Shown here one piece after another: positions 47,505 through 49,177 of a DNA stretch of 64,000 nucleotides. Every line of letters begins with the position of its first letter. Position 1 is the first letter of the stretch. The position numbers and the translations under genes are program-made. Below the pieces are notes generated by a model. It did no database searches, had not been told where the DNA came from, and saw only the letters and a list, made by a program, of their open reading frames with translations. The stretch is from contig JABCZL010000005.1 in NCBI GenBank assembly GCA_013289685.1, forward strand, positions 62,001 through 126,000, read 5' to 3'. This stretch comes from Acidobacteriota bacterium (lineage in GTDB: Bacteria; Acidobacteriota; Terriglobia; Terriglobales; Acidobacteriaceae).

Positions 47505-47533
47505 TTGACGTAAACAAGACTTGGCCGTAAAGT
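47505..47533 (+). promoter_or_regulatory. Sigma70-type promoter for the RiPP locus
   Basis: TTGACG (47505-47510) and TAAAGT (47528-47533) separated by 17 nt, a close match to consensus. The expected start, about 47540, leaves a 20-nt leader with a G-rich ribosome site (ATGGGGGCGG) before the precursor ATG at 47561. Confidence 0.65.
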
Positions 47534-47560
47534 GTTAGCGCAAGAAATGGGGGCGGTTTG

Positions 47561-47851
47561 ATGGCACCATGGAAGAAGCTTCGACAGCGCGTCTTAAAGC
47601 TAGCATCTCTTTTGCTAGTTTCATGTGGGCTTCTTTCCGCGCGGACGACGCCCATCCGTTCCACTTCTTCAATTCCGCAGCGAATAGCTGCCGTGCAGAA
47701 GGTGGTACAAGAGATGCCCGCCAAAATGAAGCAACCGTTCTTGATTCGGGCGCAATGGGGAAATTGGGGAAACTGGAATAATTGGGCTAACTGGAACAAT
47801 TGGAACAACTGGCGCAATTGGAGCAACTGGGGCAACTGGAGAAACTTTTGA
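47561..47851 (+). CDS. RiPP precursor with ten Trp-X-Asn triads (GrrA/OscA-like)
   Basis: 96 residues from ATG 47561. Residues 1-30 look like a Sec signal ([20 protein letters not shown] then SCGLLSA). Residues 31-65 are a leader with [19 protein letters not shown], reminiscent of the S-T-I-E-x-R-L-x-x-L region of GrrA/OscA leaders. From residue 66, ten perfect triads Trp-X-Asn follow with no spacer (X = G,G,N,A,N,N,R,S,G,R; Trp at 66, 69 and every third residue to 93), closed by Phe96. The maturase gene starts 6 nt later. In GrrA/XyeA-type peptides, radical SAM enzymes link an aromatic ring to the residue two positions on, often Asn, forming three-residue cyclophanes; every triad here fits. 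Uninterrupted repetition is unusual. Confidence 0.9.
47756..47848 (+). repeat. 9-bp codon repeat encoding Trp-X-Asn
   Basis: Ten exact 9-nt units TGG-NNN-AAY from 47756 to 47845, followed by TTT. The middle codon varies (GGA, GGA, AAT, GCT, AAC, AAC, CGC, AGC, GGC, AGA) and the Asn codon alternates AAT/AAC, so the repeat is held at protein level and is not a recent simple duplication. Confidence 0.9.
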
Positions 47852-47857
47852 TCAACG

Positions 47858-49177
47858 TTGGATCCCGTCCTGGCTCTGCTGATGTCTTTCTCTAATTTAT
47901 TACCTTTGCACGGTCCCGCTCAACTTCCTGAAGCGAATTTACAGTTTGCGCGTTCGCTCGAGATTCTTGTGCTGCAACCCACACCTTTCTGCAATCTCGA
48001 TTGCGACTATTGCTATCTATCACAACGCGATGTTATTGGCCGGATGAGCATCGAGACGATTCGTGATGCCGTAAGACTAGTAATCGACGGTGGGCTCGTC
48101 GAAGACCATCTTTCGGTGGTGTGGCACGCGGGGGAGCCATTGGTGCTATCCACTGACTACTACTCTGAAGCTTTTGCAGCTATAGAGAACGTGGTGCAAC
48201 AAAAGTTTAGAGTTTCTCATTCCTTCCAGACCAATGGAACTCGTATTGATGATAACTGGTGCGAGTTCTTAAAACGGCACGACACGAGAATCGGTCTGAG
48301 CATTGATGGACCGGCGTTTTTGCACGACCTTCATCGCAAGACCCGTCAGGGAAAGCCCACCCACGCGCTCACAATGCTAGGGGTGCAGAAGCTCCGGGAA
48401 TACAAAATTCCCTTCCATGTCATAGCGGTTGTTTCACTGGATTCTCTAGATCACGCCGGCGCGATCTTCCGGTTCTTTGAAGAGCTCGACGTCGAAGAGA
48501 TCGGATTCAATGTGGAAGAGCTCGAAGGAGATCATGAAAACTCGAGCCTGACGGCAGAAGGTGTTGAAGCCCGATTGGATAACTTTTGGCAGCGGCTTTA
48601 CGAGCTCTATGAGTCTTCGGGACGAAGAGTTCGAATTCGGGAATTCCAGAGAGCAACCAGCGCGATTCTGGCGGCCTCCGAAGGTCTATCGTGGCGAGAT
48701 GTAGCCGCACAAAACGACCAGGTCTTACCTTTTCGAATTTTATCTGTGGACTGGCAAGGCCGGATCTCCACGTTTTCGCCGGAACTCCTGGGAGTCTGTG
48801 ACCGAAACTACGATGATTTCAGTTTTGGGCGGGTGGGACGCGACAGCCTCGTATCAATTCAAACATCCCCAACTCTCCAGCGAGTAGCGCGCGAGGTTAG
48901 CATCGGGGTTCATGAGTGCTCCCGATCTTGCGAGTATTTTTCGGTCTGTGGCGGAGGATCTCCGTCTAACAAGTACTTCGAGAACGGCAGCTTCATGTCG
49001 ACGACAACCATGTATTGTCGAAGCTCGATTCAGCTCCCCATCAAAACTGTGCTGAGCGGGTTGGAGCGCCAGCTTCAGTTAGACCGGCCCTACACTTCGG
49101 GGATCTTTGGTCGTTTTTCCGTGTTTCGCCGCACACCTCCTGGTAGGTCACACCGGATACTTCCAGATCAGTCGTGA
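47858..49177 (+). CDS. Cyclophane-forming radical SAM/SPASM peptide maturase, GrrM/OscB-like
   Basis: 439 residues from a TTG at 47858; ATG 47882 is the alternative. The radical SAM [4Fe-4S] motif is CNLDCDYCY (Cys45, 49, 52). Family-specific stretches follow: VVWHAGEPLVLS, SHSFQTNGT, IGLSIDGPAFLHDLHRKTR, FHVIAVVSLDSLDHAGAIF, GFNVEELEG, VDWQGRISTFSPELLG, and the SPASM part CSRSCEYFSVCGGGSPSNKYFENGSF. The last element is strongly like GrrM/OscB enzymes, which form C-C bonds between an aromatic ring and a beta-carbon in the substrate. It would act on the Trp-X-Asn precursor just upstream. Its 3' end overlaps the convergent nSTAND gene by 137 nt. Confidence 0.92.
   Translation: MDPVLALLMSFSNLLPLHGPAQLPEANLQFARSLEILVLQPTPFCNLDCDYCYLSQRDVIGRMSIETIRDAVRLVIDGGLVEDHLSVVWHAGEPLVLSTDYYSEAFAAIENVVQQKFRVSHSFQTNGTRIDDNWCEFLKRHDTRIGLSIDGPAFLHDLHRKTRQGKPTHALTMLGVQKLREYKIPFHVIAVVSLDSLDHAGAIFRFFEELDVEEIGFNVEELEGDHENSSLTAEGVEARLDNFWQRLYELYESSGRRVRIREFQRATSAILAASEGLSWRDVAAQNDQVLPFRILSVDWQGRISTFSPELLGVCDRNYDDFSFGRVGRDSLVSIQTSPTLQRVAREVSIGVHECSRSCEYFSVCGGGSPSNKYFENGSFMSTTTMYCRSSIQLPIKTVLSGLERQLQLDRPYTSGIFGRFSVFRRTPPGRSHRILPDQS

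Follow-up and report, generated by a model that had tools for sequence, protein, structure and literature searches.

A known peptide class with a compact core: a ten-triad Trp-X-Asn precursor gene and an adjoining GrrM/OscB-family maturase gene in an Acidobacteriaceae genome

The stretch of DNA analysed here, referred to as the window, comprises 64,000 nucleotides from an Acidobacteriota bacterium of the family Acidobacteriaceae (assembly GCA_013289685.1, contig JABCZL010000005.1, positions 62,001 to 126,000 of the forward strand). It carries a short precursor peptide gene followed closely by a radical SAM/SPASM gene, and the features of this pair are as follows.

47561..47851, plus strand: precursor peptide gene, 96 aa, ATG start and TGA stop (open reading frame listing and sequence)
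47561..47641, plus strand: basic-hydrophobic signal-like N-terminal segment, residues 1-27 (by eye)
47681..47698, plus strand: leader motif RIAAVQ, fitting R[LIVMA]xx[LIV][RQST] (leader comparison)
47756..47845, plus strand: core of ten strict uninterrupted Trp-X-Asn triads, followed by Phe at 47846-47848 (sequence)
47858..49177, plus strand: GrrM/OscB-family radical SAM/SPASM maturase gene, 439 aa from TTG (TIGR04261)
47990..48013, plus strand: radical SAM cluster motif C45-x3-C49-x2-C52, CNLDCDYC (GrrM alignment)
48917..49018, plus strand: SPASM-region cysteines C354, C358, C364 and C387 with CGGGxPSNKYxENG (GrrM alignment)

The precursor frame opens with the ATG at 47561, 56 nt past the point (47505) at which the initial annotation had begun the locus, and ends with the stop codon 47849-47851. 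A TTG located 3 bases upstream of the ATG is an alternative start giving 97 aa, and a G-rich GGGGGCGG stretch precedes the ATG. The open reading frame listing and the sequence confirm the earlier description of a 96-residue precursor ending in ten consecutive Trp-X-Asn units and Phe, as the last 31 residues are (Trp-X-Asn)10-Phe. Within the signal-like segment, LVSC could be a candidate lipobox. The 9-mers of the array are all different (10/10), the Asn codons are a mixture of AAT and AAC, and the mean pairwise identity of the X codons is 0.36, so the array does not look like a fresh tandem duplication of DNA. When the whole 6.85-Mb genome was searched with a (WxN)3 DNA pattern, the matches (8, overlapping, forward) were confined to this array, with 0 reverse matches and 0 matches to the reversed control pattern.

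It could be argued that the Trp-X-Asn frame is fortuitous and that the true gene lies on the minus strand, where an open frame of 124 aa (47461-47835) overlaps the array. Such a coding artefact is hardly credible, since the plus frame has the G-rich stretch before its ATG, the signal-like N-terminus and the leader motif, and since like precursors precede grrM in a corresponding position in G006 (L005) and G482/G496 (L163), genomes of the same genus. A similar antisense frame is also found opposite the array in L221, which is what the composition of the repeat alone would give.

Read as a gene of the plus strand, the precursor resembles the GrrA/OscA1 precursors (TIGR04260) in its signal-like N-terminus (judged by eye), its leader motif, its C-terminal aromatic-X-Asn triads and the adjoining grrM, but it differs from them in the absence of Gly spacers, there being zero residues between its triads, and in the absence of a match to the precursor model at E up to 1. 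The compact precursors L005, L165, L178, L216 and L219 likewise gave no match to TIGR04260 at E up to 0.01, and the Gly-spaced precursor of L008, which belongs to the same bacterial family as the window, matches the model with 44.1 bits (cut-off 31). The motif R[LIVMA]xx[LIV][RQST], which was defined post hoc with the leaders in view and lies outside the curated TIGR04260 definition, was present in 32 out of 37 leaders of compact and spaced precursors (mean 3.9 and maximum 9 in shuffled leaders) and absent from 5; the leader of L190 was cut too early in this count. The likeness to GrrA-type precursors holds for RIAAVQ, a motif common to spaced precursors, and does not extend to a match with the precursor model.

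The radical SAM open reading frame begins 6 nt past the precursor stop (stop at 47851, TTG at 47858), exactly as had been reported, and an in-frame ATG at 47882 is its other possible start. The suggestion that the enzyme is GrrM/OscB-like was borne out by comparison with TIGR04261, which gave 426.3 bits against a cut-off of 310, residues 39-404 aligning with model positions 1-363, that is, along the whole model; the second-ranked model, AmcB, reached 316 bits, below its own cut-off of 425. By the curated cut-off the predicted enzyme belongs to the GrrM/OscB family. It shares with these maturases the CxxxCxxC motif and four SPASM cysteines, and C45, C49 and C52 as well as C354, C358, C364 and C387 are invariant in 33/33 aligned GrrM rows. 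Both the CxxxCxxC motif (CNLDCDYC) and the CGGGSPSNKYFENGSF region are present in the enzyme as the initial annotation had it. The AlphaFold model of the maturase has a mean pLDDT of 87.4 and a pTM of 0.84, with residues 1-22 and 415-439 under 50. Its top PDB matches are chains of ChlB (9gmc/9gm3, TM 0.71-0.72 by query), a radical SAM protein solved there in complex with the leader of its own precursor, followed by an anaerobic sulfatase-maturating enzyme, which is also the best solved relative by sequence alone. The 3' end of grrM on the plus strand overlaps that of an nSTAND1-WD40 gene on the minus strand by 137 bp (window 49041-49177).

The surveys turned up enzymes above the TIGR04261 cut-off in 6 genomes out of the 200 from the window's family (own genome included), in 15/145 of a cyanobacterial class, 4/337 of an alphaproteobacterial class, 2/321 of a gammaproteobacterial class and 2/199 of the planctomycete phylum, the seed genome being included in each of the last four figures. 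A protein search of 297 genomes of the window's phylum yielded 3 matches at E <= 1e-60, own included, and among 45 genomes of the genus 5 matches were found at E <= 1e-20, 3 of them (own included) below 1e-100. After removal of the window and seed genomes, the family and class or phylum surveys left 27 loci (L218 being under the cut-off). A precursor could be named in 21 of the 27, of which 17 were spaced, one was mixed (L214) and three were compact (L005, L216, L219); at the other 6 loci no precursor was found. It had been stated that known cores have triads spaced by Gly: spacers are indeed the commoner arrangement (17/21 loci) and Gly-rich in most of the 17, but L208 and L209 have other residues in their place. 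L216 (1171-1455, alphaproteobacterial-class genome) carries a spacer-free Phe array, (FxN)8, beside its GrrM gene.

Additional arrays were sought by a pattern scan for five WxN units in a genome-contig collection that covers, by its description, 84,980 species. At least 118 stretches were obtained, among which 17 were followed. The window enzyme was compared by tblastn with the DNA around the 118 listed stretches (<=8 kb each) and matched 15 of them at E 1e-4; these 15 were followed on that ground, L061 and L090 on their precursor sequence, and the remaining 101 listed stretches were judged by eye from their translations, many of them looking like simple repeats read in another frame. Ten of the 17 followed stretches lie in genomes with an enzyme above the TIGR04261 cut-off (by record title, Acidobacteriaceae, Eremiobacterota, Planctomycetota, Dechloromonas, Rhizobacter, Roseobacter, another alphaproteobacterium, two Leptolyngbya and Adonisia). 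The other seven comprise six of a Deltaproteobacteria-type family, whose enzymes are under the cut-off, and one archaeal locus.

The Deltaproteobacteria-type family (L114 1239-5677, also L041, L061, L077, L079 and L136) has short precursors with a leader of the ...EILxEI type and a core of 7 to 9 WxN, often with WWT at the end, and radical SAM genes nearby, their enzymes scoring under the TIGR04261 cut-off; in L114 the precursor is followed by two radical SAM genes and an ABC-transporter-like open reading frame. The archaeal locus L119 (299-1393 and 1408-2442, WAOB01000090.1, titled DPANN group archaeon) has a radical SAM/SPASM gene, whose product is above none of 25 listed NCBIfam cut-offs, and then a 344-aa open reading frame with 32 WxN, 40 Wx[ND] and a longest Wx[ND] run of 15; it may be regarded as a candidate archaeal poly-triad RiPP.

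Counting the scan matches listed and the surveys, arrays without spacers accompany GrrM genes in genomes assigned, by title or grouping, to five phyla. Compact precursors from six sources can be likened to that of the window: Adonisia turfae (L132/L178, run 11), Leptolyngbya PCC 7375 (L090, run 10), Eremiobacterota (L123/L165, run 9), Dechloromonas (L122/L166, run 8), Rhizobacter (L153/L168, run 8) and Planctomycetota (L120/L167, run 5); all have uninterrupted strict WxN runs and GrrM-family genes nearby, as in the window. Among the matches listed and the surveys, the longest strict runs beside such enzymes are the 11 of Adonisia turfae and the 10 shared by PCC 7375 and the window, the next being the 9 of Eremiobacterota. 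The Leptolyngbya and Adonisia arrays are made of a repeated WDN-WGN-WSN block, in contrast to the window's ten units, which all differ in DNA. In Adonisia turfae two tandem compact precursors (L178 2764-3123 and 3203-3616) stand before one grrM, the nearer containing 11 strict WxN. In PCC 7375 the ten-triad precursor has a grrM nearby (G476:C5, about 363.8-367.6 kb) that reads as two separated pieces, so that this copy looks interrupted.

The initial annotation had proposed that precursors with more than six triads be sought beside such genes, and runs of 8 to 11 were found. Its other statement, that back-to-back triads set the locus apart from known cores, is correct as to the arrangement, which is real, but the arrangement recurs in five phyla with 11 triads in Adonisia turfae and 10 in PCC 7375, and the novelty claimed was somewhat overstated. 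The array as a unique ten-triad case was ruled out by the scan of at least 118 stretches and by the surveys. Since similar spacer-free peptides occur in several phyla, the window pair represents a known peptide class in a compact-core version and is no one-off. Among the papers listed by the literature searches, and in passages of PMC11002830 and PMC9062424, no spacer-free triad arrays were found; PMC9062424 mentions Aro-Xaa-Asn motifs in some radical SAM clusters.

A WxN run alone proves nothing, as many of the listed readings have no GrrM-like gene. It is accordingly conceivable that the (WxN)n array stays unmodified, being a Trp-rich tail with a structural or binding role, and that the enzyme has some other substrate; 101 of the 118 listed WxN-rich readings had no GrrM-like gene in the DNA examined. 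However, the arrays adjoin GrrM-family genes here and in other genomes, and the leader motif is common to spaced precursors including that of L008, which matches the GrrA family model; this explanation is consequently considered very unlikely. The array as substrate of the neighbouring maturase is the reading favoured here.

A maximum-likelihood tree was built of 46 enzymes, 16 labelled compact and 17 spaced; the label counts leave aside 8 rows in which no precursor was recognised (among these, L211 has a 68-aa open reading frame with a few triads), 2 mixed rows and 3 outgroup rows. The label of L005 is compact with a strict WxN run of 4, as one triad is WVS and one Arg interrupts; L161, L162, L179 and L190 reach a run of >=5 when Asp is allowed as the third residue, and L216 has Phe in place of Trp. 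Compact rows came mostly from genomes of the WxN scan and are thus over-represented. Long branches were flagged for L022, L218, L217, L212 and L169, and odd composition for L168, L216, L207 and L219. Core type follows the enzyme tree: it needs 2 changes, against a mean of 11.1 in shuffled labels, and 0/500 shuffles were as low. Consistent with two changes, the compact rows do not form one clade. The window enzyme, whose identity to the other rows does not exceed 46%, is one of seven compact rows that group together (own genus, Eremiobacterota, Planctomycetota, Dechloromonas and Rhizobacter; support 89/91, the branch not being starred). None of the seven precursors has spacers, and the group stands apart from two spaced groups, the main cyanobacterial one and the alphaproteobacterial/Acidobacteriaceae one. 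The four spaced rows that come from the window's family sit elsewhere, with alphaproteobacterial-class enzymes, so both types occur, separately, within a single bacterial family. The AU test rejects the spaced rows as a single clade (p 1e-6, for a grouping chosen with the tree in view). The matching division of the tree and of the core types suggests that the tolerance of spacing is an intrinsic property of the enzyme.

Which core positions are kept was examined in three related compact pairs (L005/L163, L166/L168 and L179/L190), the interrupting Arg of L005 being removed first. Over 24 sites, the third positions (Asn/Ser/Asp) showed 7 synonymous changes and none in amino acid, and the 24 X positions showed 11 amino-acid changes. 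In the Trp column, which in two pairs also counts the residue that follows the final triad, all 26 sites kept their amino acid. Kept Trp and third positions are what one crosslink per triad would predict, which falls short of proof. It may nevertheless be that only some triads, for example every second one, are crosslinked, a closed ring hindering the next and the array serving as many chances. Neighbouring rings without spacers may hinder each other, which makes partial modification quite possible, and the greater frequency of spaced cores (17/21 surveyed loci) is expected if spacing eases modification; on the other hand, each of the triads compared, and not every second one, retains its Trp and its third residue, with 0 amino-acid changes over 24 third positions. 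The probability of partial modification is put at somewhat under one half.

Radical SAM enzymes use a 5'-deoxyadenosyl radical. It is proposed that the precursor is translated with its signal-like N-terminus, a leader with the R-hydrophobic-x-x-hydrophobic-R/Q motif, a linker and the ten-triad core, and that the GrrM/OscB-family enzyme from the next gene would bind the leader. The 5'-deoxyadenosyl radical is predicted to remove the Asn beta hydrogen, after which the Asn C-beta would bond to the Trp ring two residues before, with loss of 2 H per triad, ring closure proceeding triad after triad; the modified peptide would presumably be exported and its leader removed. According to PMC11002830, the bond made by OscB runs from Trp C7 to the C-beta of an Asn or Asp located two residues further along, and the core is built of triads of the kind on which GrrM/OscB enzymes act, in agreement with what had been supposed. 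We infer that the window enzyme forms the Trp-to-Asn C-beta bond here. In comparison with the OscB, XncB and MscB triceptides, as reviewed in PMC11002830, the same three-residue Trp-to-Asn C-beta cyclophane is expected in the window product, with the difference that its core is a long spacer-free run.

It is highly probable, judging from the genes themselves, that the pair gives rise to a triceptide with many adjacent cyclophanes, at least several triads being crosslinked. Aromatic-X-Asn/Asp triads here adjoin a radical SAM gene of the GrrM/OscB family, compact arrays adjoin GrrM-like genes in other genomes too, and the gene arrangement, the enzyme family, the conserved clusters, the kept Trp/Asn positions and the common leader motif all argue for this product. 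Our guess is that most triads, perhaps not all ten, would be modified. The ten stacked Trp rings, or ten-ring ribbon, pictured in the initial annotation can be entertained as a hypothesis.

The pair sits in an island inserted at a tRNA-Met gene, with the following elements.

41718..41794, minus strand: tRNA-Met gene at the island integration site (Rfam gives 41721-41794)
41756..41797, no strand assigned: direct repeat at the near end of the island (second copy at contig C5:151502, window coordinate 89502, beyond the window)
41820..43037, plus strand: probable tyrosine recombinase/integrase of the island (Phage_int_SAM_3 20.5 bits, cut-off 22.6; beside the tRNA; catalytic-type residues by eye)
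45378-45896: papain-like cysteine protease, upstream of the pair in the island (Peptidase_C70 31.3 bits, cut-off 19)

The repeat is a 42-base stretch of the 5' half of the tRNA, its copies being alike at 41/42 bases and about 47.7 kb apart; ARAGORN found no tRNA at the second copy, and Rfam elements in the window are tRNA only. The island spans ~47.7 kb, from window position 41718 to coordinate 89543 (contig C5:103718-151543). In L234-L238, five genomes of the same genus, the tRNA-Met sequence continues directly into the right-hand flank with no insert, the tRNA being detected by ARAGORN in each of three of them; for the left flank past the tRNA, no alignment with these five relatives was obtained. 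GC in 1-kb bins from 42 to 64 kb is 0.505-0.587, mostly <0.55, compared to 0.58 for the 224-kb piece holding the island. Island neighbours of the pair include DUF4231/SLATT, nSTAND1-WD40, TIR, MoxR-type AAA, Prim-Pol and terminase-like proteins, and the island also carries PLD-domain and phage-like genes. PADLOC assigned no anti-phage system among 8 island proteins; its best result was a type II restriction-enzyme model with 30.2 bits for 55501-56868, TIR-type models scored near 23 bits for one TIR protein, and the SLATT protein had no match. The neighbours of the same-genus loci in G006 and G496 differ from those in the window. The papain-like peptidase was rejected as a partner of the pair, as it is not beside grrM in the open reading frame lists of G006 and G496, and no transporter or peptidase gene tied to the pair was found.

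On the basis of the island position and the signal-like leader, an exported peptide used in competition or defence is a fair guess. A wider proposal, offered tentatively and with more doubt than confidence, treats the spacer-free (WxN)n precursors, together with the GrrM lineages that go with them, as a triceptide branch of their own that spreads horizontally. A single enzyme of this branch would close all triads in succession, giving an unbroken ribbon of up to ten or eleven adjacent indole-bridged rings; here the ribbon peptide would be cargo of a tRNA-integrated island rich in conflict genes and may serve competition or defence. The spacer-free series offers a clean test of one radical enzyme acting on adjacent sites, that is, of its processivity, its direction and a possible block of one triad by a ring already closed beside it, and the arrays found in nature, with 5 to 11 triads, provide a ready length series. 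Should every triad close, a single enzyme would have built, on a genetically encoded template, a rigid polycyclophane of unusual length.
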